This document shows, one piece after another, positions 4,343 through 36,738 of a stretch of 64,000 nt of DNA. The notes beneath the pieces are model-generated. The model ran no database searches. It saw only the letters and a list, made by a program, of their open reading frames with translations, and had not been told where the DNA came from. The stretch spans positions 1 through 64,000 of the forward strand of contig NZ_JACSWB010000217.1 of NCBI RefSeq assembly GCF_016888135.1, in the 5' to 3' direction. This DNA comes from Leptolyngbya sp. CCY15150. Lineage in GTDB: Bacteria > Cyanobacteriota > Cyanobacteriia > RECH01. The stretch's first letter is position 1. Each line of letters opens with the position of its first letter. The position numbers and the translations under genes were made by a program.

Positions 4343-5098
4343 GTGGCTCTTCCTCTGCTAAATTACTCGCCCGTCAGCCAAAATCAGCGCGTGGCAGGGT
4401 ATGAAGTTTCCAGTGAAGAAAAACCCAAAATTTTTACGACGGATAACCTACTATCTCCCTCCGATATGGATGGGTTGATTTGGGCTGCCTATCGTCAAAT
4501 TTTTAGTGAGCATCAAATGCTCAAAAGCAATCGTCAAACCTTTTTGGAATCTCAGCTTCGCAATGGGCAAATTACGGTTCGCGATTTCATTCGTGGACTT
4601 GTGATTTCTGATCCATTCCGTCGCCGTAATTTTGAACCGAATAGCAACTACCGATTCGTGGAAATCTGTGTGCAGCGCGTTCTCGGTCGCGATGTATACA
4701 GCGAGCGCGAGAAGATTGCTTGGTCGATCGTGGTGGTCAACGAAGGCGTTCAAGGCTTTGTGGATGCGCTCCTCGATAGCGAAGAGTACCTCAACAGCTT
4801 TGGCTACAACACAGTACCGTTCCAGCGCCGTCGGATTTTGCTGCAGCGCACCCAGGGCGAAACTCCATTCAACCTGAAAACCCCGCGCTACGACGCCTAC
4901 CACCGCAACCAGTTGGGCTTCCCCCAAATCATCTGGCAAAACCAAGTGCGTCGTTTTGTGCCTCAAGAGCAAAAATTCCGCGCTGGCAACCCTGCCATGT
5001 TCTTGGATATGGCCCGTGGCGTCTCCGCCAAGGGTAGCTCCACACCTCGCGTTTCGGCGATGAACATCAACATCGAAGCCTCTGTGCCTCGTCGTTAA
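4343..5098 (+). CDS. cpcG: Phycobilisome rod-core linker CpcG
   Basis: A 251-residue linker with the conventional CpcG layout: a linker domain at about residues 15-170, and a C-terminal region ([19 protein letters not shown] and a basic end) that lacks a membrane helix. It connects phycocyanin rods to the allophycocyanin core of the hemidiscoidal phycobilisome. The start is a GTG at 4343 with a strong GGAGG at 4331-4335. It shares long identical segments with the upstream cpcL gene. The rest of the cpc operon is not in this window. Confidence 0.92.
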
Positions 5099-5120
5099 GT
5101 TTCGTCAGCTTAACGTACGT

Positions 5121-5198
5121 CCCATAGGAGGAGTCGTTCTATCTAGGGTTGGCCTGCGATCGCAGGGTACTTTAGACAGGGCGGCTCCTTTGGGTTTT
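5121..5198 (+). terminator. Possible terminator of cpcG
   Basis: CCCATAGGAG (5121-5130) can pair with CTCCTTTGGG (5185-5194) with one mismatch, and TTTT follows. The long loop contains the self-complementary CCTGCGATCGCAGG around a HIP1 site. This could form a branched terminator structure; position after cpcG supports it, folding is unverified. Confidence 0.35.
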
Positions 5199-5252
5199 CA
5201 GGATATCTAGTGGATGGTTAGGGGCGTCTGTTTCCAGGGCGGTTGAACGGCC

Positions 5253-6218
5253 TTACGGCTGCCGTCGTCGCAGCACCTCAATCAAGGTGATCAGAGATTG
5301 GGGCAGGGGGGCGATCGCTTCAATCCATTCCTGGGTGACCGGGTGCTGCAGCCGCAGGCGTTCGGCATGGAGCGCTTGTCCGCTGAGCTTCACGCCGATA
5401 GAACGATTGGAACTGTAGACCGGATCGCCCACCACGGGATAGCCCAAAAAGGCAGCATGAACGCGGATTTGATGGGTGCGTCCCGTTTCAAGCTGAAACT
5501 GTAGAAGCGAGTAGTTGCCCAGCCGTTCCACCACCGACCAATGGGTGACCGCCCGGCGTCCGCCGCGATCCTCGGGCACAATACCCATCTTGTGGCGATC
5601 GCTCACATTGCGACCAATGGGTTGATCCACCGTTCCCTGATCTGCACTGGGGGAACCATGCACCACTGCCAGGTACTCGCGCCGGGCAGTTTTGGTTTTG
5701 AACTGAGCCTGTAGATGCTGCAGGGCCAGATCGGTTTTAGCCACGGCGATCGCCCCGGTAGTATCTTTATCCAAACGATGGACAATGCCCGGACGCTGGA
5801 CACCGCCAATCCCCGGCAGGTTAGGACAATGGGCCAGCAGCGCATTCACCAAGGTGCCCCTGGGATGCCCCGGAGCTGGATGCACCACCATCCCCGCCGC
5901 TTTGTTGAGAATAATCAGATGCTCATCTTCATAGAGAATATCGAGGGGAATCGCCTCCGGGCTTAGGTCTAGCGGTTCTACCTCTGGAATCGTCACGGTA
6001 ATGCGATCGCCCGCCTGCACGGCCTGCTTCTTACTGGTGCAGGGCGCATCATTCACCCAGACCTGCCCCTGTTCAATGAGCTTCTGGAGGCGGGCCCGAG
6101 AAAACTCCGGCAGATGATCCGAGAGCCATCGGTCAAGGCGATCGCCGCCCTGCTGTACATCGATATAAATGGAGTCGTCCTCTAGGTCGGACGGGGATGG
6201 ATCGAGGGAATAGTTCAA
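5253..6218 (-). CDS. RluA/RluD-family 23S rRNA pseudouridine synthase
   Basis: A 321-residue enzyme with an N-terminal S4 RNA-binding domain (about residues 25-85: DRWLSDHLPEFSRARLQKLI) and an RluA-type synthase domain. The catalytic Asp is in the signature HRLDKDTTG, and the later QIRVHAA motif is present. RluD-type enzymes convert specific uridines in 23S rRNA to pseudouridine in the cytoplasm. The N-terminus has a short acidic extension. The start ATG gives a family-typical length. The next gene upstream on the same strand, cobA, is unrelated in function and 37 bp away. Target site (for example RluD positions in helix 69) is inferred from family only. Confidence 0.9.
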   Translation of the reverse strand: MNYSLDPSPSDLEDDSIYIDVQQGGDRLDRWLSDHLPEFSRARLQKLIEQGQVWVNDAPCTSKKQAVQAGDRITVTIPEVEPLDLSPEAIPLDILYEDEHLIILNKAAGMVVHPAPGHPRGTLVNALLAHCPNLPGIGGVQRPGIVHRLDKDTTGAIAVAKTDLALQHLQAQFKTKTARREYLAVVHGSPSADQGTVDQPIGRNVSDRHKMGIVPEDRGGRRAVTHWSVVERLGNYSLLQFQLETGRTHQIRVHAAFLGYPVVGDPVYSSNRSIGVKLSGQALHAERLRLQHPVTQEWIEAIAPLPQSLITLIEVLRRRQP

Positions 6219-6255
6219 CGACGGTTATCTACAACACTACGAATCTTGGCTAGAT

Positions 6256-7053
6256 CTAGTCTATGCCGGGAGCCGCCATTCGGACGTCTTGTACCCGCGG
6301 GCGACAAACCGCCAGGGTGTCGTGGAGATTGACCACCGAACCAATGACGGCGATCGCGGGCGCACTAAACCCAGTCTCTTCAAGTTGCTGAAGAATGGTG
6401 CCTAGGGTGCCAATCAGTTCATCCTGCTCAGGACGCGTGCCCCAACGCACCAAGGCAACGGGAGTCTCGGCACTCAAGCCCGCCTGCTGTAATTCACTGA
6501 CAATGTGCACCATATTATGGATGCCCATGTAGATCACAATGGTCTCCGACGCCTGAGCGATCGCCTGCCAGTTGACCGCTGGACGATACTTGCCAGCCGC
6601 CTCATGCCCAGTCACAAACGTGATGGATGAACTATGGTCGCGATGGGTGAGGGGAATCCCCGCATAGGCCGGAGCTGCAATTCCTGAGGTGATTCCCGGC
6701 ACCACTTCCACCGGCACCCCCGCTGCCACCAGATCACTCATTTCCTCGCCGCCGCGCCCAAAGACAAAAGGATCGCCGCCTTTAAGACGCACCACGATCG
6801 CCGCATCCTTGGCCTTCTCAATCAACAGGTGGGTAATATCCGCCTGGTACAGTGAATGTCGCCCTCGCCGCTTGCCCGCATTAATTTTCTCTGCCTGGGG
6901 ATTAATCATCGCCAGAATCGGCTCGCTGACCAAGGCATCGTAGACCACCACGTCGGCACATTCCAGCAACGCCTTACCTTTCAAGGTCAGCAATCCTGGA
7001 TCGCCGGGCCCCGCACCCACAAGATAGACATAGCCAAAGGAAGAAGCTTGCAT
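6256..7053 (-). CDS. cobA: Uroporphyrinogen-III C-methyltransferase
   Basis: A 265-residue SAM-dependent methyltransferase with the classic signatures GAGPGDPGLLTLKG near the N-terminus, GGDPFVFGRGGEE near the middle, and the PGITS and LTHR motifs. It methylates uroporphyrinogen III at C2 and C7 to form precorrin-2, the branch point towards siroheme and B12. It lacks the dehydrogenase/ferrochelatase domain of fused CysG enzymes. I chose the ATG at 7053; the frame is open upstream to a TTG at 7098 that would overlap sirB. It lies just downstream of a CbiX-type chelatase gene, forming a siroheme pair. Confidence 0.92.
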   Translation of the reverse strand: MQASSFGYVYLVGAGPGDPGLLTLKGKALLECADVVVYDALVSEPILAMINPQAEKINAGKRRGRHSLYQADITHLLIEKAKDAAIVVRLKGGDPFVFGRGGEEMSDLVAAGVPVEVVPGITSGIAAPAYAGIPLTHRDHSSSITFVTGHEAAGKYRPAVNWQAIAQASETIVIYMGIHNMVHIVSELQQAGLSAETPVALVRWGTRPEQDELIGTLGTILQQLEETGFSAPAIAVIGSVVNLHDTLAVCRPRVQDVRMAAPGID

Positions 7054-7091
7054 AGGCACCACAGAATAGAACTTGAACGGGCTAGCGGCAA

Positions 7092-7844
7092 TTAACAAGA
7101 CACATAGCGATCTGGAGCCGGGCGATCGCTTAACTGGGCCACCAAATGGGCCACCTCAGCCGTCGCGCCCAGAGGTTCAGCCATCGAGAACTGAATCGTG
7201 GGATGGCGCTGGGCTAGGTCATGCACCTGCTGGGCGATGGCATCGGTAATCCCCCCTGCAAACAAAAAGTAGGGCAGAATGGCGATCGCTTGGGTGCCCG
7301 TAGACAGCAACTGCTCCACCTGTTGCTCCAACGACGGAGCCACCGACCAGTAGGCCGGCAGCGCCCCAAGCTGAGCAGCGATCGCCTCAATGGGCACATT
7401 GCCCCCATCTCGCCGACTGCCATGGGACACCAGCACTCGACTGCCCACCCTTGGATCGAAGCTCCGCTGCAGCAGTTGCCCCATATGCGGATGACTGCCC
7501 AGGTAGGCACAGATCTGCACATCTAGAGTCGGCAGATGAGCTTGGGCGATCGCCACTTCTGCTGGAATATCGTCGCGCACATGCACACCGGGCAGCAAAA
7601 ACAGTGGCACAATCTGAAGCACCGTTCCTCCATGGCAACAGAGGCGATCGCCCAACTGCTGAATACGTTGGTGCAGCGGCACATCGGCCAGTTCCAGCGA
7701 AGCAGTTTCCACCCAGAGTGGAGCAGCGGTAGAAGCTTGCAGACAATACTGCACCCGTTCTGCCAACTGACGAGCCATCCAGGGCGATCGCGGATCACGA
7801 CTACCGTGGGTAACCAGGAGATAGGCGACGGGGGGTAAAGGCAT
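7092..7844 (-). CDS. Sirohydrochlorin chelatase, two CbiX domains
   Basis: A 250-residue protein built from two CbiX-like halves. The first has LLVTHGSRDPR near the N-terminus with its metal-binding His, and the second has VLVSHGSRRDGGN at about residue 130. Two-domain enzymes of this kind (SirB type) insert iron into sirohydrochlorin to make siroheme for nitrite and sulfite reductases; cobalt insertion for B12 is the alternative. It is directly upstream of cobA on the same strand, so the two probably act in one pathway. The precorrin-2 dehydrogenase is not in the window. The start is uncertain: I prefer ATG 7844, with an upstream TTG at 7883 also in frame. Confidence 0.85.
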   Translation of the reverse strand: MPLPPVAYLLVTHGSRDPRSPWMARQLAERVQYCLQASTAAPLWVETASLELADVPLHQRIQQLGDRLCCHGGTVLQIVPLFLLPGVHVRDDIPAEVAIAQAHLPTLDVQICAYLGSHPHMGQLLQRSFDPRVGSRVLVSHGSRRDGGNVPIEAIAAQLGALPAYWSVAPSLEQQVEQLLSTGTQAIAILPYFLFAGGITDAIAQQVHDLAQRHPTIQFSMAEPLGATAEVAHLVAQLSDRPAPDRYVSC

Positions 7845-8198
7845 GGGGTGAGCAATCCCAGAGCAACCGTAATGACTATGCAATTCGACCAGTAGCCGCC
7901 AGGGTGATCTCTACCCAGAGAGAGCGATCGCCCCGGTTTCAGCCATGTGAAGTTCCTCCCCTAGGAAGAAGCTCCAGCCTAGGAATTGGCATACACTAGA
8001 ACTATAGAGCTACAAAACCCTTCAGGTCAGTAGCAGACGATGCCACAAAGACAAGTCCTTGTCTAGGCAACCTGTTACCTCTATGGCCGATAATTGTTAA
8101 CTTCAGATTAACAAAATAGCATGTCTTAGCAACATCTGCGGAGTTTACTCAAGACAACCTGAAGTCACTGTAGCGAGGCGTGACTTGGAGCAAGTGCT
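7845..8198. other. Intergenic region between sirB and the pentapeptide gene
   Basis: A divergent gap of about 350 bp that should hold the promoters of both flanking genes. I see one HIP1 site and AT-rich patches, but no gene or defined regulatory motif. Confidence 0.4.
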
Positions 8199-8627
8199 AT
8201 GAGACAGATGATATTAACGTTGGCAGCTATCCCGATTCTATTGGTAGCGGGGCCAGCTCGAGCAGAAAATCCCGAGCACGTTCAGCAATTGCTGAGCACA
8301 GGAGCCTGTCAATCTTGCGATTTAACCAATGCAGACTTAAGCGGAACCCATCTAATTGGCGCAGATTTACGGGAAGCAGACTTGAGCGGCGCATCACTGG
8401 TTAATAGTAACCTAGAAGGCGCTGATTTGGAAGGTGCCAATCTCAGCCAGGCTAATTTAACCGGCGCATTCCTCACCAATGCCAACTTCAGCTATGCCAA
8501 TCTCAACAATACTGACCTGACCAATGCCACGATGTTCCACGCATTGGTGGAAGGGGCATCTATTCAGAACGTCGATCTTACAAATGCTCAGATTCTCGGC
8601 ACCGACATTAGTGTAGGCGGAGACTAA
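8199..8627 (+). CDS. Secreted pentapeptide-repeat protein
   Basis: A 142-residue protein with an N-terminal signal peptide (hydrophobic core ending ARA, cleavage near residue 22), a short segment with a Cys pair (CQSC), and about a dozen pentapeptide repeats of the A(D/N)LXX type (GADLREADLSGASLVNSN). The repeats predict a right-handed quadrilateral beta-helix. Such proteins are common in cyanobacteria and some act in the thylakoid lumen; the role of this one is unknown. The ATG has GGAG at 8187-8190 as ribosome binding site. It stands alone between a divergent chelatase gene and the hypothetical gene at 8761. Confidence 0.85.
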   Translation: MRQMILTLAAIPILLVAGPARAENPEHVQQLLSTGACQSCDLTNADLSGTHLIGADLREADLSGASLVNSNLEGADLEGANLSQANLTGAFLTNANFSYANLNNTDLTNATMFHALVEGASIQNVDLTNAQILGTDISVGGD

Positions 8628-8760
8628 TCCTGACACCAAGACTGGCTCTAGCTAGGCATTGGATCCTGGGCAGCCTTGTGCCATGATGAGAAGTCCTGAT
8701 ATCCCCTCTACATATGGGATCGGATCAGGCAGCATGGCTCATGGTGTTCAGGCAGGTACT

Positions 8761-9075
8761 ATGACAGGCTCTCAACTCTACTATCTCGTGCGATCGCGAA
8801 CTGATGGTCAATACCTTGTAGCCAAAATGCGCGGACAGGGCACCCAAGAGGGCGATCGCCCCACCTATATCCTCACCTTCACTGATCACGCAGATGCGCT
8901 CAGCTACCTCAACACCCATGCAGGGGAGTTAGCTGAGCATTTTGCTGTGGAAGCGATCGCCCCTAGCCAACTCTCGAAGCTCATGCAGCGCTGGGGCTAC
9001 ACGGGCATCGGCATGGTCAACGATCCTCTCATTCCCGAGGTCGAGTTTCTGGAGCGGCAACGTGGATTAGGATAG
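8761..9075 (+). CDS. Conserved hypothetical protein; host gene of a tail duplication
   Basis: A 104-residue soluble protein with no motif I can name. It begins MTGSQLYYLVRSRTDG and ends EFLERQRGLG. The frame is open upstream to 8659, but the ATG at 8761 gives the cleanest start. Its last 42 codons are repeated at 11163-11288 with 94% identity, and nearly all differences are synonymous, so both tails have been under coding selection. A 9-bp-stem hairpin follows the stop codon. The foreign DUF5131-tcmP cassette begins right after this gene. Function unknown. Confidence 0.65.
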   Translation: MTGSQLYYLVRSRTDGQYLVAKMRGQGTQEGDRPTYILTFTDHADALSYLNTHAGELAEHFAVEAIAPSQLSKLMQRWGYTGIGMVNDPLIPEVEFLERQRGLG

Positions 9076-9076
9076 G
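8951..9076 (+). repeat. 126-bp direct repeat, left copy (gene 3' end)
   Basis: This stretch matches 11163-11288 with no gaps and 7 mismatches in 126 bp. It starts at the HIP1 site in codon 64-65 of the host gene and ends one base after the stop codon. The two copies bracket the DUF5131-tcmP cassette in direct orientation. Confidence 0.9.
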
Positions 9077-9104
9077 CTCATGGACTCCATGCTGACCATG
9101 AGCC
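9075..9104 (+). terminator. Hairpin after the host gene
   Basis: The perfect repeat GGCTCATGG/CCATGAGCC (9-bp stem, 12-base loop) starts in the stop codon region of the upstream gene. There is no T-run, so termination is inferred from position. It also marks the left boundary of the foreign cassette. Confidence 0.45.
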
Positions 9105-9347
9105 AAAACAGAGAGCGTAATCACCTAACGCCGTATTTAGAGCACAACGGTGTCCGAGGAAGACTCACGGGCGATTAAACTCTTGCCAACAACCTACCAC
9201 ACCTCTATATCAACCTATTTTGATGTCACGCCACTGCTGTTTAAAGGCTCATGAGCATATCAATAATTGTTCTAACCCTTAAGGGCAGCCAGAGCTTTTG
9301 TACTATAATTTAACCTTGAAACCAGTCCTAAAGGATGTATTAGCAGA

Positions 9348-10139
9348 ATGTCAAGCGCTAACACTGGTATTGAATGGACTGATAAGACCTGGAATCCAAC
9401 TACTGGCTGTACTAAGGTGAGTCCGGGTTGTAAGCACTGCTATGCAGAAGCACTTACAGAGCGATTTCCCAAGAACTTCCCACAAGGCTTCAAGTTAGCA
9501 CTACATTCAGATCGATTGGGGCAGCCCAAAAAGTGGCGAAAGCCTAGCCGGATTTTTGTCAATTCCATGAGTGATCTTTTTCATCAAGATATACCTTTTG
9601 CATATTTGCAGAAGATATTCGCAGTGATGAAAGAAACTCCCTGGCACGTGTACCAAATTCTAACGAAACGTGATCAGAATCTGGTAAGGCTAGCACATCA
9701 TCTTGAATGGCCTGAGAATGTCTGGGTTGGCGTATCTGTAGAAAGTCAACACTATACTCAGAGAATTGATTCCTTAAGGCAAGTACCTGCAAAAGTTCGT
9801 TTTCTGTCATGTGAACCTCTTTTAGGCTCGTTGGACCTTGATTTAGAAGGGATTGATTGGGTAATTGTTGGTGGCGAGTCTGGACACCAATATCGTCCTA
9901 TGAATCCGGAGTGGGTTAGAAATATTTTGTATCAAACGCGAGAAGCTGAAGTTGCTTTCTTCTTCAAACAATGGGGAGGGCATCACTCAAAGGCTGGTGG
10001 CAGAGTCCTTGACAATAAAATTTGGGATGAAATGCCATCTGCATGGCATGACCATATCCATAAGTGGCAAAAACACTATCCTTCTGAGCATCAAAAGCCT
10101 AATGGGCTAGAACAAAAGTATCTAATTCCTGCTAAATAG
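9348..10139 (+). CDS. DUF5131 (phage Gp37/Gp68-like) three-Cys protein
   Basis: A 263-residue protein of the family first named from phage Gp37/Gp68. It opens with SANTGIEWTDKTWNPTTGC and has three cysteines, C21, C28 and C31 (C-x6-C-x2-C in GCTKVSPGCKHCYAE), which look like an iron-sulfur cluster site of radical-SAM type, though the spacing is not the canonical CxxxCxxC. Later family motifs are visible: SMSDLFH, ILTKR, VSVES, LSCEPLLG, IVGGESG and FFFKQWGG. The reaction is unknown. It is followed after 13 bp by tcmP, its usual partner. GC is clearly lower than in neighbouring genes and no HIP1 site occurs, which indicates recent transfer. A TATAAT-like box lies at 9304-9309. Confidence 0.85.
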   Translation: MSSANTGIEWTDKTWNPTTGCTKVSPGCKHCYAEALTERFPKNFPQGFKLALHSDRLGQPKKWRKPSRIFVNSMSDLFHQDIPFAYLQKIFAVMKETPWHVYQILTKRDQNLVRLAHHLEWPENVWVGVSVESQHYTQRIDSLRQVPAKVRFLSCEPLLGSLDLDLEGIDWVIVGGESGHQYRPMNPEWVRNILYQTREAEVAFFFKQWGGHHSKAGGRVLDNKIWDEMPSAWHDHIHKWQKHYPSEHQKPNGLEQKYLIPAK

Positions 10140-10152
10140 AGAGCATTTAACC

Positions 10153-11034
10153 ATGAGTCGGCTCGGGAGTGAGGGTGAGGATCTTATCGGACGGTGGTCG
10201 GAAGAAAAGTTAGATTTACTAGCGAAATATCTCGAAGCCTATTCTGACATTATGAATAAGCAGAAAGAAAAGTGGCTGAGAGCCTACTATTACATTGATG
10301 CTTTTGCAGGTTCTGTTAGACCCAGAGCGAAAAAAGATGAGCAACGCTACATTGATGGCTCTCCTTTACGTGCTTTACAAACAGAACCTCAATTTGATGC
10401 CTATTGGTTTGTGGATGTTTCTCCTCGACGAATAGAACGGGTGCAAAAACTACGTGATGAATTTCCAAATCGCGTAATTGATGTACGCCAAGGTAACTGC
10501 AATGATGTTTTATGTAACGATATAGTTCCACAACTTCGCTACTCATCAAAGAAACGAGCCTTTGTCTTCTTAGACCCTTATGGGTTACAGGTAAACTGGG
10601 AAACAGTACGAGAACTGGCAAACACCAGAACGTGCGATATTTTCGTTAACTTCTCAGTCATGGGCGTTACTCGTCTTCTCCCCAGAGATCAGACTCCAGA
10701 ACCAGAAGTGATCGAGCAATTAAACAAAGTTATGGGTAGTACTAACTGGATTAATGAAATTTATCGAGAACTCCCAGGAATTCAGTTAGACATATTTGGG
10801 AATTCGACAGAGCCTACTTTAAGCCGTCGAACAATTCAAGCTGAATGGCTAGCAAGTCTTTATACAGAACAACTACGATCCCTCTTCCCGCACGTTAGCA
10901 GACCTGTGCTTATGCGTAACTCGACAAACTCAGTTCTGTATGCGTTATGCCTAGCAAGCCACAACAAAACAGCTATCAAGATTACCCATGATATTTTCAA
11001 TCGACACGAAAGATTGAGGGATCTGGGAAAATAG
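10153..11034 (+). CDS. tcmP: Three-Cys-motif partner protein TcmP
   Basis: A 293-residue protein of the TcmP family, defined by its pairing with DUF5131 proteins. The sequence has the order of a class I methyltransferase fold: YYIDAFAGS (about 46-54, motif I like), WFVDVSPRR (about 85-93), RQGNCND (112-118) and FVFLDPYG (137-144, a motif IV of the DPxx kind). This suggests a nucleic-acid or nucleotide-modifying enzyme, but activity is not established to my knowledge. It starts 13 bp after the DUF5131 gene, so the two are almost certainly co-transcribed. Composition is foreign, as for its partner. A short hairpin lies 95 bp after the stop. Confidence 0.82.
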   Translation: MSRLGSEGEDLIGRWSEEKLDLLAKYLEAYSDIMNKQKEKWLRAYYYIDAFAGSVRPRAKKDEQRYIDGSPLRALQTEPQFDAYWFVDVSPRRIERVQKLRDEFPNRVIDVRQGNCNDVLCNDIVPQLRYSSKKRAFVFLDPYGLQVNWETVRELANTRTCDIFVNFSVMGVTRLLPRDQTPEPEVIEQLNKVMGSTNWINEIYRELPGIQLDIFGNSTEPTLSRRTIQAEWLASLYTEQLRSLFPHVSRPVLMRNSTNSVLYALCLASHNKTAIKITHDIFNRHERLRDLGK

Positions 11035-11128
11035 CCTGTGGCTTCATTTACTCAAAAACAGTTATACGGTCATCAAGGATCGATCTAAGGAATGTTGCCA
11101 TAAGTAGGGAAAACTTAGATTGGCGACC

Positions 11129-11150
11129 ACTCTCTCGTTCTTGAGAGAGT
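11129..11150 (+). terminator. Hairpin after tcmP
   Basis: ACTCTCTC and GAGAGAGT form a perfect 8-bp stem around a 6-base loop. It sits between tcmP and the right copy of the 126-bp repeat, so it may end the cassette transcript or mark an old element end. Confidence 0.4.
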
Positions 11151-11162
11151 TCAACAACATCC

Positions 11163-11288
11163 AAGCGATCGCCCCTAGCCAACTCTCAAAACTCATGCAG
11201 CGCTGGGGCTACACGGGCATTGGCATGGTCAACGATCCTCTCATTCCCGACGTTGAGTTTCTGGAACGGCAACGTGGATTGGGATAGG
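11163..11288 (+). pseudogene. Orphan 3' end of the host gene (right copy of the 126-bp repeat)
   Basis: This fragment encodes the last 42 residues of the gene at 8761-9075 in an intact frame ending in TAG (11285-11287), but has no start or upstream domain. Compared with the left copy there are 7 mismatches. Six are silent and one changes Glu to Asp in the PEVEF segment (PDVEF here). That pattern means the copies diverged while coding, so this is likely the displaced original tail or the tail of a lost paralogue. It directly abuts the end of the META-domain gene on the other strand. Confidence 0.8.
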
Positions 11289-11298
11289 GGCGATCGCC

Positions 11299-12525
11299 CT
11301 AGTCCATCACAAACTGGGCGATCGCTTCCCCCTGATCATCCATCACCGTGAGGCGATCGCCATCAATCCGATAACGGGCTACCCGCTCAAGCTGCTGTAG
11401 ATAGGTCTGTTCTTGCTGCATCACTCCCGGTGTTCCACAAAACATCCGGGTAGATGCGGCGGGGGCAAGGGTTAAGCGATCGCCTTCCACCATGAACGAC
11501 GACATATAGCGGTTACAGCCCGCTTCCCCACTCACCTCGCCAAGAATTTGTTCACCCACAGCGGAGGCTCCTGTGAAGTCCAGGCTGATGGTGGTGCCCT
11601 CTAGGGGAGCATTGGCGTCTTGAGCTAAGGACAACAGCCGCCAGCGGCCTTGCAGGGGCCAAGGGCGCAGCAGGGATAGGGTCATGATTTCATTCCCCGA
11701 TGCATCCATGAGGTTGAGTTCATCATTCACCTGGCGGTAGGCGATCGCTTCTTCACCTAGCAGTGCCATGATCTGGATCTCCTGCCATCGCGTTACCAGA
11801 GAGTCACAGCCGGTTTGGGCCATCTCATCCAGCGTCCAATCTAGGCGATCGGGCGATCGCTCATAGGAACCCGCCACCTGATGACAGGGAAAGTCGCCCG
11901 CCATCTGCCCATCGGGGTCGAGATTGAGAAACAGGGACTGCCCTAGGAGTCTCAGATCCACCATGTCCCCGCGAATGTTGCGGTAGGTTTCCAGTTGCCA
12001 GCGGTTGCGAAACCCGAAAGGGACAAATTCTGCCACTCGCATACCGTCAGCATTGGCAAGATAGAGGTGAGTCTCGCTCCACTCCACGCGGCTATTGTCG
12101 CTAGGCAGTCCGCCAAATAGCCCAAATTCTGGCACATCCTGACAGTACATCAAGGTAGCTTGCAGATCGCCGAGTTGGAGGCGATCGCCCTCCAGTTGGT
12201 AGGGGCCGCCGTAGGAATTACAGCCGTCGATACCTCCCAAGTAGTCTTGATCAAACTTGAGCGACACCAAAAGATGGGGCGGCACCGTGAGCCACTGACC
12301 GTCAGCCGTTTGGTAGCGATCTAAGAGCCAAGCCGTATCCACCAAGGTTGGGGATGGGGATGGATCCATTGTCGGGGTCAGCGACTCCGAGGGCGACTCC
12401 GGTGCTAGGGTAACGATGTCGGGTGGGATAACCGGGGCGCGATCGCTGAGGGGCAGCGCTACAGCAGCGGAGGCCATGGTACCGACAGCTAACAGGCAAC
12501 TCAAACAGGACAACAATGCGTACAT
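11299..12525 (-). CDS. META-domain (HslJ-like) exported protein
   Basis: A 408-residue protein with an N-terminal signal sequence (MYALLSCLSCLLAVGTMASA) and a Pro/Ser-rich linker, then at least two META domains. The first (about 60-150) has the pattern TAWLL..GGIDGCNSYGG, and the last (about 300-400) has GRWRLLSL..GEAGCNRYMSSF and MFCGTPGVMQQEQTYL. A middle segment is more divergent. META domains, as in E. coli HslJ, occur in secreted or lipid-attached proteins of uncertain function, sometimes linked to stress and antibiotic tolerance. An earlier in-frame start (12582) exists, but the ATG at 12525 places the signal peptide properly. No operon partner. Confidence 0.8.
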   Translation of the reverse strand: MYALLSCLSCLLAVGTMASAAVALPLSDRAPVIPPDIVTLAPESPSESLTPTMDPSPSPTLVDTAWLLDRYQTADGQWLTVPPHLLVSLKFDQDYLGGIDGCNSYGGPYQLEGDRLQLGDLQATLMYCQDVPEFGLFGGLPSDNSRVEWSETHLYLANADGMRVAEFVPFGFRNRWQLETYRNIRGDMVDLRLLGQSLFLNLDPDGQMAGDFPCHQVAGSYERSPDRLDWTLDEMAQTGCDSLVTRWQEIQIMALLGEEAIAYRQVNDELNLMDASGNEIMTLSLLRPWPLQGRWRLLSLAQDANAPLEGTTISLDFTGASAVGEQILGEVSGEAGCNRYMSSFMVEGDRLTLAPAASTRMFCGTPGVMQQEQTYLQQLERVARYRIDGDRLTVMDDQGEAIAQFVMD

Positions 12526-13056
12526 GGGGCTAATCTGACCTTGAAGAGAGGGGACAGGAAACGCCAACCAGCACAATGCCAAAACCGGGGACTAGCCCAG
12601 AGAAATGCTACGTGATGCTTAATGCAGCTTGAACGAGTTGGCATGAGGTGATGACGCGATCGCTGTCCTAGGGGTTCCAGGACATGGGTTTGCTCAGAGC
12701 TTGGGCTCACATCGATCACCCGTGCCATCTAGGTATACCTGTTCACTCGGTTTGACATGAAGAGCGATCGCCCCCGCTGCCCACTCCCCATGTCCCCAAA
12801 AGACAAAAACGCTGAATGATAATTCATCCAGCGCTAACGTTTTATATGCGTTGCTCTCAGTCTCAGAGGAATCCTGATCTGCGCGTTCCCATTCGTTCAG
12901 AATCAAGCATTTCTCTTGACACAAATTGTAACAAAGAGCACAGACCTTTGATGATTAAACTTTGCGCATGTATTAGCCATAGATATAACTCTAGCTAATA
13001 CATGGGCGATCGCCTCCTACCATGCCAGCGCCTAGACGAGCAACGAGTTGATGGGT
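12526..13056. other. Intergenic region
   Basis: About 530 bp with several HIP1 sites and AT-rich segments. Short open frames on both strands show no gene-like features. I see no gene here. Confidence 0.4.
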
Positions 13057-34092: not shown

Positions 34093-34728
34093 ATGCCAGA
34101 TATTCAGTTTCAAACCGAGCCTACTCTGTCCCTGACGACGGCTCCCATCAACGATCTGCGGGCCTATTTGCTGACCCTGATTTGCCAGGTGGCCTATCGC
34201 GAAGGCGACTTTTTGCTCACCTCCGGTCAACATACGGATTACTACATCAATGGTAAACAGGTCACCCTCCATCCCCAAGGGGCGATCGCTGTGGGGCGGG
34301 TGCTCTTGGCCTCAATTCCAGACCAGGCGATCGCCGTGGCGGGGCTGACGCTAGGAGCCGACCCCATGGTGACTGCCGTCAGTGTGGTCGCGGGCTATGA
34401 GGGGCGATCGCTGGCGGCGCTGATTGTGCGCAAAGAAGCCAAGGGCCACGGCACCCAGGCCTATATTGAAGGCTTGCCCCTGCCGGCTGGCAGTCCAGTC
34501 GTTGTCCTAGAAGACGTGGTGACCACAGGACAGTCGGCCCTCAAAGCCGTAGACCGTCTACGCAGCCATGGCTATCAGGTGGATCGGGTCTTGGCCTTGG
34601 TCGATCGCAACCAGGGCGGCCGCGAGCTGTACGAACAGCACCAGCTCCACTTCGAGGCCATCTTCACCGTGGACGATCTGCGCCAGGAGTGGGCTAAGCT
34701 GCATGGAGCGTCCCCATCGAACCCATAA
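34093..34728 (+). CDS. pyrE: Orotate phosphoribosyltransferase
   Basis: A 211-residue enzyme of pyrimidine synthesis that joins orotate to PRPP to form OMP. Family motifs: LTSGQHTDYYINGKQV near residue 42, LIVRKEAKGHGTQ in the flexible loop with its lysines, and the PRPP-binding motif VVVLEDVVTTGQSAL at about 137-151. Length fits bacterial PyrE. I chose ATG 34093; the frame is open back to 33997. It is followed by a strong hairpin and is probably a single-gene transcript. Confidence 0.93.
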   Translation: MPDIQFQTEPTLSLTTAPINDLRAYLLTLICQVAYREGDFLLTSGQHTDYYINGKQVTLHPQGAIAVGRVLLASIPDQAIAVAGLTLGADPMVTAVSVVAGYEGRSLAALIVRKEAKGHGTQAYIEGLPLPAGSPVVVLEDVVTTGQSALKAVDRLRSHGYQVDRVLALVDRNQGGRELYEQHQLHFEAIFTVDDLRQEWAKLHGASPSNP

Positions 34729-34737
34729 GCCATCCCA

Positions 34738-34761
34738 TTGAGGTGGAGTATTCCACCTCAA
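34738..34761 (+). terminator. Hairpin after pyrE
   Basis: TTGAGGTGGA and TCCACCTCAA form a perfect 10-bp stem with a 4-base loop, ten bases after the pyrE stop. There is no long T-run, but the stem and location make a transcript-end function likely. Confidence 0.55.
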
Positions 34762-34929
34762 GATTGTTCAAATTGACTAGGATTTAGATACCCCTGCGTC
34801 AGAGACAAGCCATTGGGCAGCCCCAGGAGTTCACCACCTGGGCTTCCATAAGCTAAACAACTAGGGCTAATAAACCCAGTGGTTGCTAGATAGGGCGGGA
34901 GAGCGATCGGATTGCAGAGTCACATAGTT

Positions 34930-34966
34930 TTGACATCCTCCCCGGACTGAAGGCGCGGGGATTCCC
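34930..34966 (-). mobile_element. Solo end of an IS200/IS605-type element
   Basis: On the minus strand this reads GGGAATCCCCGCGCC, then TTCAGTCCGGGGAGGATGTC. This resembles the conserved right-end hairpin of IS200/IS605 elements that carry TnpB. The stem is TCCCCG/CGGGGA (34939-34944 with 34956-34961). No tnpA or tnpB is present within kilobases, so it is a remnant or a minimal non-autonomous derivative. Confidence 0.5.
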
Positions 34967-35084
34967 AATCTGCCCGCACTAGGCGGACTCGTCACATCGT
35001 TGTCATCATGTTAAATTCCGTCCTTTCACTGAGACAAAAGTGTGTCATTGTTGAGTATCCTCAAGACTTAGTTGATGGATTACC

Positions 35085-35879
35085 GTGGCTATGTACCTGT
35101 CAGATGATGGCAAGTTAACACCTGAAATCCTACAAATTGGAAGCATTTTCGGCAAACTGCCACCGGAGGCAAAGGATTGGTTTGAAAGCCTGCCGTGGCA
35201 TCAGCGCCGCTACGTTTTGCTGCTCTGCCATCTCATGCGGGTATCGTCGCCCGATGTGCAAGCCGAATTTTTAGACGAATATACCGCCGATGGGCTGGTG
35301 TCTCGCAAGTTGGACGATCGCGACACCCAGAACCGCGTCACCCAATACCTCCGGGACTTTCATATCCATACAGAATTGGATGAAGCTCTCCTGCGCAGCT
35401 ACATTCGTCAGTTCTACATCCACTCTGCCCAAGACACGCGCCGCCAGCCAGATATGTATCTAGAATCGGCCCTGAAGCTTGTGCTCAGTGCCGAAGAGCG
35501 CAACAACGTCTTCAACTACATTTTGGGATTTGAACTGCTCAAAATGATGTTCTGCATGAGCTGGCTGGAGCACGAACGCCTCTACCGCCTACAGCGCAAC
35601 CAAGAGGAGTTTATTACCCTCTATATCAAACCGATTCAACATGCTCATCGGGTGAATGGCATTGTGGTGCCTCGCGACGAAGGCATTTTCTTCGCCCGCC
35701 GCAACTACTTTGTACAAAAGCCAGAGCTATCCGACAAGAAACTGATCGAGCTGGTCATCGCCACCTTTACCACCGACACAGTGACGAACTTTGGATTTTC
35801 AATTATCCGTCACATCAACTCGCTGCACTTTGACTACGACTTCATCTTCCGTCCTGAAACGGAGCCGATCTTCCAATAG
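35085..35879 (+). CDS. Conserved protein of unknown function
   Basis: A 264-residue soluble protein, mostly helical, with no signal peptide or membrane segment. It begins with a GTG, or an ATG two codons later (MYLSDDGKL). Segments such as WHQRRYVLLLCHLM, NYILGFELLKMMFCMSWLEHERLYRL and GIFFARRNYFVQKPELSDKKL look well ordered. I do not recognise the family. Composition matches the surrounding genome. It stands alone. Confidence 0.75.
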   Translation: MAMYLSDDGKLTPEILQIGSIFGKLPPEAKDWFESLPWHQRRYVLLLCHLMRVSSPDVQAEFLDEYTADGLVSRKLDDRDTQNRVTQYLRDFHIHTELDEALLRSYIRQFYIHSAQDTRRQPDMYLESALKLVLSAEERNNVFNYILGFELLKMMFCMSWLEHERLYRLQRNQEEFITLYIKPIQHAHRVNGIVVPRDEGIFFARRNYFVQKPELSDKKLIELVIATFTTDTVTNFGFSIIRHINSLHFDYDFIFRPETEPIFQ

Positions 35880-35893
35880 CTCTACGCCATGGA

Positions 35894-36703
35894 TTAAGGC
35901 ATAGCAGGAGGGCCAAACAGTTCGTACAGCGACAGCAAAATTTCCACCACGATCAAAATGACGATGTACCATTCCACCCGATGACTGGTGTTGTACTGCA
36001 GCAGTTCAAGGGCCGTTTCGGCGGTGCGGGAAATCAGATCTAGCTTACGTTCTAAGGCTTGGTTGCGCTCCCGGATCTCATATTCATCTTCTAGGCGCAG
36101 GTAAATACGTTCCAGCTCGGGGGCATCCCAGAGCAGTTCGGGCTTGTCAATAATCTCCACCCGTCCCACAATCCGATTTTGAATGGATAGGGTGCGCCCA
36201 ATTTGCCGCAGCAGCTCCTTGCCCATACTGGCGTTTTTAGCAGTGAGCTGTAGGCTATTGGCAAAGGGTTCAATCTGATCAAAAATTCTGGCGGTGCCGT
36301 CTTCGTAGTGCTCCAGCACCACACTTTTGGCCAGAACATCGGCGACGAGCTGCAGTTGCTCTACGCTAAAACTCGATAGCCAGATGACATCATTCTCAAC
36401 CCGTCCTACACCGGTCGTATCAAGGCGTAGGTTAACGTCCTCCGTAGCCGGATTGGGCAGAGGTTTGACCACCAAGGTATCCAGTTGCTGGAGAAAGGTT
36501 ACTTGCTCTAGGGGATCGAGCCCAAACAGCACCGCTGCTCCATATCGAAACAGGACAGCACAGCCGTTATCCCCCGCCGACACAACGAGAGGATCGATGG
36601 CCAGGGGATCGGTCTTTTCCAGGAGTTTTAGGTCTAGGCTTTCGCCCAAAAACAAGGCCCGGACAGACACCAGGTCTTTATCACTAAACAGAAGCTTTTC
36701 CAT
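35894..36703 (-). CDS. RMD1 family (DUF155) protein
   Basis: A 269-residue protein of the RMD1/DUF155 family, also found in mitochondria and plastids. The N-terminal domain has VVSAGDNGCAVLFRYGAAVLFGL. The conserved second part contains RIFDQIEPFANSLQ and GRVEIIDKPELLWDAPELERIYLRLEDEYEIRER split by short variable parts. A helix near the end (about 243-262) is a membrane anchor. Yeast members help mitochondrial translation or meiosis; the bacterial role is unknown. It lies 35 bp downstream of gatC on the same strand. Confidence 0.85.
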   Translation of the reverse strand: MEKLLFSDKDLVSVRALFLGESLDLKLLEKTDPLAIDPLVVSAGDNGCAVLFRYGAAVLFGLDPLEQVTFLQQLDTLVVKPLPNPATEDVNLRLDTTGVGRVENDVIWLSSFSVEQLQLVADVLAKSVVLEHYEDGTARIFDQIEPFANSLQLTAKNASMGKELLRQIGRTLSIQNRIVGRVEIIDKPELLWDAPELERIYLRLEDEYEIRERNQALERKLDLISRTAETALELLQYNTSHRVEWYIVILIVVEILLSLYELFGPPAMP

Positions 36704-36738
36704 AGGGATAGGCAGAGGGCTCTCGGCTAGGGCGATCG

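Follow-up and report, generated by a model that had tools for sequence, protein, structure and literature searches.

The window analysed here is a stretch of 64,000 nucleotides from Leptolyngbya sp. CCY15150 (NCBI RefSeq assembly GCF_016888135.1, contig NZ_JACSWB010000217.1; genome G000, a draft assembly of 304 contigs), and all coordinates are positions in that window unless a locus is named. It contains a resident gene, here called X, that is followed by a DUF5131 gene and tcmP (three-Cys-motif partner), by a second copy of the 3′ tail of X that lacks the head of the gene, and by a META-domain gene on the opposite strand (Table 1). The two tail copies are identical at 119 of 126 bases in a gapless alignment, as an earlier sequence-only reading of this DNA had noted. 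The explanation given slightly better than even weight is that the DUF5131-tcmP pair, which belongs to an integron-associated family, came to lie between X and META by an integrase-free route, through recombination with incoming DNA.

Table 1. Coordinates of the features at the X-META locus
Feature	Positions	Strand	Basis or remark
Resident gene X, 104 amino acids	8761-9075	+	No Pfam or NCBIfam match
Native 3′ tail of X, repeat copy 1	8951-9076	+	Same place and homologous downstream DNA in G001 and G002
Host DNA after X, homologous in G001 and G002	9076-9175		End of homology at about 9175 is the left junction
Left edge of insert	9176-9290		Weak similarity to half an attC and the 5′ leader of other cassettes
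DUF5131 gene	9348-10139	+	PF07505, 324.9 bits (gathering cut-off 28.9); PADLOC 1.3e-107
tcmP (PDC-M41A)	10153-11034	+	TIGR04474, 231.9 bits (cut-off 53); PADLOC 4.4e-65
Right edge of insert; possible decayed cassette-end motif at 11098-11104	11035-11162		3′ leader resembles three attC-type cassettes
Second X tail, repeat copy 2, without gene head; probably an imported allele	11163-11288	+	Sequence comparison
HIP1-bearing 11-bp spacer, second-tail stop to META stop	11288-11298
META-domain gene	11299-12582	-	PF03724, 150.9 bits

Gene content of the insert

The DUF5131 gene and tcmP are the only plausible genes between the two tail copies, and no recognisable recombinase or integrase gene lies within this unit, both as the sequence-only reading had it. 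The DUF5131 protein matches the PADLOC models PDC-M41B and PDC-M30B and falls under the cut-off of TIGR04471 (Radical SAM mobile pair protein A; 84.1 vs 355 bits), and TcmP has a further, weak match to PDC-M30A. PADLOC thus reports both components of the candidate system PDC-M41, adjacent to each other. Because a passage of PMC11811056 gives the PDC systems as unpublished candidates of Payne et al. 2021, the term defence is an annotation and not a result, and it is by annotation only that the pair probably functions in phage defence. Single-sequence folds of the DUF5131 and TcmP proteins reached a mean pLDDT (predicted local distance difference test) of 40 and 48, and a search of solved structures gave no match under E 0.1. 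A pattern search of viral contigs found no relative of tcmP or X, and plasmid and phage records held distant tcmP only (11 and 5 records; identity no higher than 34%). The literature search did not find DUF5131 in any paper; TcmP appears as an entry in a table of PMC12429752.

The proposal of a foreign accessory cassette is supported. The guanine plus cytosine (GC) content of 9077-11162 is indeed lower (42.7% GC vs 54.3% for the window), and the lowest-GC segments of 2,086 bp in the 64 kb fall here. The lack of HIP1 sites at the cassette is also real, as a gap of 2,212 bp, but it is not unique to the cassette. A longer HIP1-free stretch of 2,328 bp lies at 34404-36732 and is not among the listed lowest-GC segments.

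The repeated tail of X

The seven differences between the tail copies fall at third codon positions only; six are silent and one changes Glu to Asp. In a simulation that drew seven random changes 200,000 times, 0.035% of the sets had every change at a third position and 0.34% altered no more than one amino acid. Since every change is at a third position, both copies most likely evolved as the ends of working genes, in agreement with the earlier reading. Neutral drift of a local copy after duplication was rejected as an unlikely source of such a pattern.

Matches to X were found in 30 of the 59 genomes searched, G000 included. Outside G000 each matching genome has a single match (that in G057 being weak and interrupted by stops), and the ancestral tandem pair of full-length genes that the sequence-only reading had named as evidence against an insertion was therefore not seen. 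A scan for direct repeats (40-400 bp in length, identity of 80% or more, spacing under 12 kb) covered 864,000 of the 5,753,645 bases of G000 (15%, window included) and returned eight rows, three of which are one tandem-repeat gene; the X tails were the only case in the scan of a gene tail flanking cargo. The second tail with its spacer folds strongly (z -3.3 and -3.6), unlike the native tail (z 1.2 and -0.1), and this hairpin is probably due to the HIP1 sites at both of its ends. In another genome (G053, locus L123) it is the start of X that is repeated, over 76 bp (98.7%; 5236-5311 and 6621-6696 of that locus), about 1.4 kb upstream of X and as a mirror image of the tail repeat.

Junctions with the host chromosome

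Two other genomes of the genus were compared, G001 and G002 (Leptolyngbya sp. DLM2.Bin15), and in both X has the same pentapeptide-repeat gene upstream as in the window. The DNA match of the window to these genomes runs past the X stop codon to about 9175, with 76 (G001) and 64 (G002) identities over 98 aligned columns of 9076-9175. Because the approximately 100 bp after the 5′ tail are homologous in both relatives, parsimony makes this tail and the 100 bp that follow it native. The cassette that the sequence-only reading had delimited stands, within narrower limits, since 9076-9175 is host DNA.

Past this point X is followed by different cargo in each of the three genomes, namely the cassette in the window, an RTX-repeat gene in G001 that fills the slot between X and META without a second tail, and katG in G002. 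The G002 gene is a second katG directly after X (L033, 9304-11333) that is 77-78% alike to the katG copies elsewhere in G000, G001 and G002, and it appears to be another acquisition in the X slot. The DUF5131-tcmP cassette is absent from G001, G002 and G003. The relatives have one tail each, and their slots, in G001 and G002, hold other cargo. The X-META slot of G002 is spread over two contigs, and because its META gene is on a separate contig, which ends 25 bp past META, this slot is not closed.

At the right junction, the 25 bp next to the META stop codon agree between G001 and G002 at 18 of 25 positions (shuffle p 5e-6) and between the window and either relative at 4 of 25, the second tail and spacer standing there instead. 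A META flank that is common to G001 and G002 and absent from the window identifies the second (3′) tail as the derived part, and on this comparison the 3′ tail is probably a newcomer, an imported allele. The history first proposed, of an element that carried a replacement tail and left the original stranded, is by parsimony inverted, for the junctions in G001 and G002 point to the 5′ tail as native and to the 3′ tail as the newcomer. The change probably reaches into META, whose 3′ end (11299 to about 11515, approximately 215 bp) has an excess of changes private to G000 (permutation p=0.0025); the G000-private share of single-genome changes beyond 11500 is 41 of 191. The second tail and the first approximately 215 bp of META would on these grounds have come in together, from a close relative whose X and META genes lie almost side by side.

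The gene pair in other cyanobacteria

The spread of tcmP is patchy: of 388 genomes of the class, 26 have the gene, G000 among them. The 1 kb on either side of 23 DUF5131-tcmP units, that of the window and those of 22 other loci, was searched for bracketing repeats, and the scores were judged against 506 cross-locus comparisons. L113 and L114, in which tcmP is distant or partial, were left out of this test, of the protein tree and of the attC search, and L092, L093 and L103 have less than 1 kb of flank on one side. Scores above the cross-locus maximum of 38 were obtained for the window (217), for G265 (82) and, marginally, for G294 (44); the G294 repeat, which is gapped and about 36 bp long, looked like a dispersed motif.

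G265 belongs to a distant genus of another family, g126, in which the case is clear: the empty site is single-copy in relatives and present in two copies around the insert. The cassette of G265 is bracketed by a 56-bp repeat (89%) that occurs nowhere else in that genome, and that of G413, also in g126, lies between two copies of approximately 91 bp that agree at 80 of 92 aligned bases, with native DNA to either side. Cassette-free single-copy sites are found in seven relatives, with one allelic form in G411, G412, G418 and G419 and another in G415, G417 and G420; the scan found no copy of the site in G270, G414 and G416. The left and right flanks of G265 match the two different allelic forms, which resembles the differing flanks of the window.

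In a third genus, g24, a cassette of 1,813 bp in G184 replaces 671 bp of intergenic DNA of G218, without a repeat, between flanks that are 99.3-99.8% identical, and the ends of the 671-bp stretch are common to other g24 genomes. Insertion footprints therefore differ, with duplication twice (window and g126) and replacement once (g24), and such variation fits recombination. A FastTree phylogeny of both proteins placed G000 among attC-type and other copies, mostly with low support, and for that reason the placement was not used as evidence. At another locus (L111 in G157, 6686-8064) tcmP is interrupted by about 1.4 kb of other DNA.

Association with integrons

The attC sites of integrons are defined by the motifs RYYYAAC and GTTRRRY and by extrahelical bases, and the integrase crossover point lies at G^TTRRRY. 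DUF5131-tcmP units in G130, G226 and G019 (3 of the 22 loci other than the window) are bounded by sequences of attC layout, and at L091, L092, L095, L098 and L099 conservation stops, as judged by eye, at ...ATAAC, the reverse of G^TTAT. A pattern scanner for attC was noisy (10 rows in 106 kb vs 27 in 530 kb of shuffled sequence, or approximately 5 expected by chance), and a covariance model was therefore relied on. It was seeded with six attC-type sites, including one that adjoins an integron integrase of G179 and one close to a decayed integrase of G000; these sites form a hairpin in which one arm has unpaired bases, and compensatory changes are seen at 9 of 21 pairs. Across the 23 cassette-bearing sources the model found six sites, at 3 of the 22 loci and none in G413. 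Four of the six are seeds, and the two non-seed hits are both in L091 (1.6e-9 and 3.6e-4). That locus (G130, 4855-8241) has an array of four attC hits around the DUF5131-tcmP unit, in a genome with no integrase over the cut-off. At E 0.01 the model gave no hit in 26 loci of gene X (246 kb). The DUF5131-tcmP family is thus integron-associated, and in some cyanobacteria it appears to move in the form of integron-type gene cassettes.

Whole-genome counts of attC model hits, for which 150 first-look candidates per genome were scored and which are lower bounds, came to at least 21 in G000, at least 10 in G001, at least 17 in G002, at least 5 in G003 and from at least 2 to at least 64 in eight others. 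Integron integrase (TIGR02249) exceeded its cut-off in 10 of 28 genomes and in none of 14 controls, all of which had weaker matches. G000 did not reach the cut-off and has fragments only, the best with 65.6 of 265 bits and an internal stop. In 40 stretches of G000 that total 800 kb, two of which were selected for their integrase fragments, the six attC hits at E 0.01 all fell in the three stretches that hold such fragments: two in C147 (one a seed), two in C207 and two in C292 (one at E 0.009). G000 thus holds three relic integrons, each a decayed integrase with attC, and these strengthen the genome context only. The relic in C147 (L279, 1-2450) has two attC hits, a decayed integrase N-terminus and, lying between, two cassette-like open reading frames, one of them DUF4760; in C207 (L249, G000:C207:160001-180000, 6286-8712) the nearer hit is approximately 1.4 kb from the integrase fragment; and in C292 (L280, G000:C292:61001-81000, 5583-10393) two weaker hits and a 125-bp direct repeat (83%) lie some kb from the fragment. 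The attC strand is that of the two genes in L091, L092 and L098, and in the C147 relic it is the integrase strand, opposite to the cassette open reading frames. The gene pair therefore probably runs against the usual cassette direction.

The 3′ leader of the window copy resembles those of L092, L093 and L098 (pairwise shuffle p<0.001, 0.006 and 0.003; 22 tested), to a lesser degree that of L100, which has no attC (p 0.015), and not those of the attC-type loci L091, L094, L095 and L099 (p 0.30, 0.12, 0.46 and 0.68). With 3 of 22 pairwise tests in support, ...CATAAG at 11098-11104 may be a cassette end; a seven-sequence right-edge hidden Markov model (HMM) misses 11035-11162. Remnants of attC at the window locus were considered and rejected, as the weak hit of a five-sequence HMM (9175-9270, E=0.052, its best in the window) failed controls and the covariance model had no hit there. 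Descent of the window copy from a cassette array is plausible.

Origin of the insertion

Acquisition by ordinary DNA recombination with a close relative is most likely, and the repeated gene end is probably a leftover of that exchange and not the mark of a special mobile element. This is close to the alternative that the sequence-only reading had offered, homologous recombination with incoming DNA. In the simplest chain of events, about 225 bp of target (8951-9175) would have been duplicated upon insertion, after which a relative's compact allele, with X and META 11 bp apart, would have replaced the right duplicate and the end of META. Alternatively, a cassette already joined to the compact allele would have entered in a single step; the three genomes (window, G001 and G002) do not separate the two. 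Passages of PMC3240628 describe inserts in E. coli that are bracketed by duplications of 109-950 bp, which are explained there by single crossover of a circle with a shortened homologous piece. For competent species they describe homology-facilitated illegitimate recombination, in which insertion is accompanied by deletion, mostly with 3-10 bp of microhomology.

Several points weigh against acquisition by recombination of a pair from an integron-associated family. The same source, in the passages concerned, judges homology-facilitated illegitimate recombination too rare in E. coli to account for natural insertion-deletion loci. No donor genome with a compact X-META allele was found among those compared, and the excess in META involves few sites (of the 33 single-genome changes up to 11500, 17 are private to G000). 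The ancestral state is assigned without an outgroup root, from two other genomes of the genus, one of which has its slot split over two contigs. In 20 of the 23 cassettes no repeat brackets the unit within 1 kb; a cassette without the repeat, which the sequence-only reading had held to contradict its proposal, is thus found in other genera, and no such case occurs among the genomes of this genus. At the window locus no attC was found (the model has 0 hits in the 64 kb; with its filters off, the top score is 6.2 bits at E 1.8), and the left-edge HMM hit was lost in all five leave-one-out models and by the attC-only model.

The last of these results also count against direct insertion by an integron integrase at a secondary site, with the tail repeat as an unrelated later recombination. 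Such an origin would draw on the attC-bounded members of the family, on the attC hits and the decayed integrase fragments that lie beside attC at three places in G000, and on the likeness of the right edge to three attC-type cassettes. As four other attC-type copies do not match that edge and the left junction does not fall where the crossover would be expected, it is considered unlikely. An integrating element with the tail of X as its attachment site, bringing a new tail and leaving the old one beyond, would explain why the repeat ends at the stop codon and why the copies differ as coding alleles, and the long direct repeat and single-copy empty sites of g126 are in its favor. It would require an integrase, which the unit lacks, and element DNA after the 5′ tail, where host DNA homologous in G001 and G002 is found; moreover, the META flank in those genomes is not a tail. 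It could hold only if an older insertion is ancestral to all three genomes and the other two have since lost the second tail, and it is given a small probability.

An equally small probability attaches to recombination between two strains that carried the cassette at offset positions, inside X in one and after X in the other, such that homologous recombination within the cassette duplicated the stretch between. Diverged copies and a different right-hand allele would then arise in one step, and the flanks of G265 with their two allelic forms would be accommodated; two independent insertions within about 225 bp are needed, and no strain with the cassette inside X was found. An assembly mosaic, in which the right flank of one strain was joined after the left flank of another, is most improbable. 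A draft of 304 contigs and tails that look like alleles of two strains would suit it, but the junction of cassette and tail still needs real reads, and the same architecture is present in G265, which is assembled in 2 contigs. It is only slightly less improbable that the DUF5131-tcmP pair itself promotes insertion without an integrase or transposase, making target duplications of approximately 90-225 bp independently in two distant cyanobacterial genera.

Comparison with known systems

Under the favored explanation, integrase-free acquisition by recombination, the locus and its counterparts are natural examples of a small candidate defence cassette entering a chromosome without a recombinase of its own, an event that the diverged duplications at the flanks and the empty sites make readable. 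Of greatest interest is the bracketed insertion that occurred in parallel in g126. An uncharacterised gene pair is tied to cyanobacterial integrons, so that both its spread and its function become open to testing, and a tempting reading is corrected, in that a repeated gene tail around cargo need not be an att site.

The locus belongs to known kinds, as a recombination insert and as an integron-associated candidate defence pair. It differs from an integrase-borne island at the 3′-end of a gene in having no integrase inside and in that element DNA does not directly follow the restored tail. It is like the single-crossover integrations and the homology-facilitated illegitimate recombination treated in parts of PMC3240628, in which foreign DNA is flanked by a target duplication of 109-950 bp without an integrase, or insertion is coupled to deletion, as in g24. 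Unlike those cases, the present one is natural, and its two repeat copies are alleles that have diverged, the right one ending at the stop codon and leading into a different downstream allele.

Compared with integron gene cassettes and clusters of attC sites lacking integron integrases (CALINs), as outlined in sections of PMC8618304, the pair is likewise attC-bounded in G130, G226 and G019, and G000 has attC and decayed integrase fragments. It departs from them in that no attC was detected at the window locus and in the seemingly reversed direction of its genes elsewhere. Both proteins match the M41A and M41B models of the PADLOC candidate system PDC-M41, itself a candidate by annotation; the pair differs in the additional PDC-M30B match of DUF5131 and the weak PDC-M30A match of TcmP. 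Antiphage genes have been reported in integrons (Darracq 2025, Getz 2025 and Kieffer 2025, cited in PMC12444791), by their titles and the citing text in Vibrio and mobile integrons. The DUF5131-tcmP pair is like these in that defence-type genes occur as integron cassettes, and differs in its cyanobacterial hosts and in being a two-gene unit.

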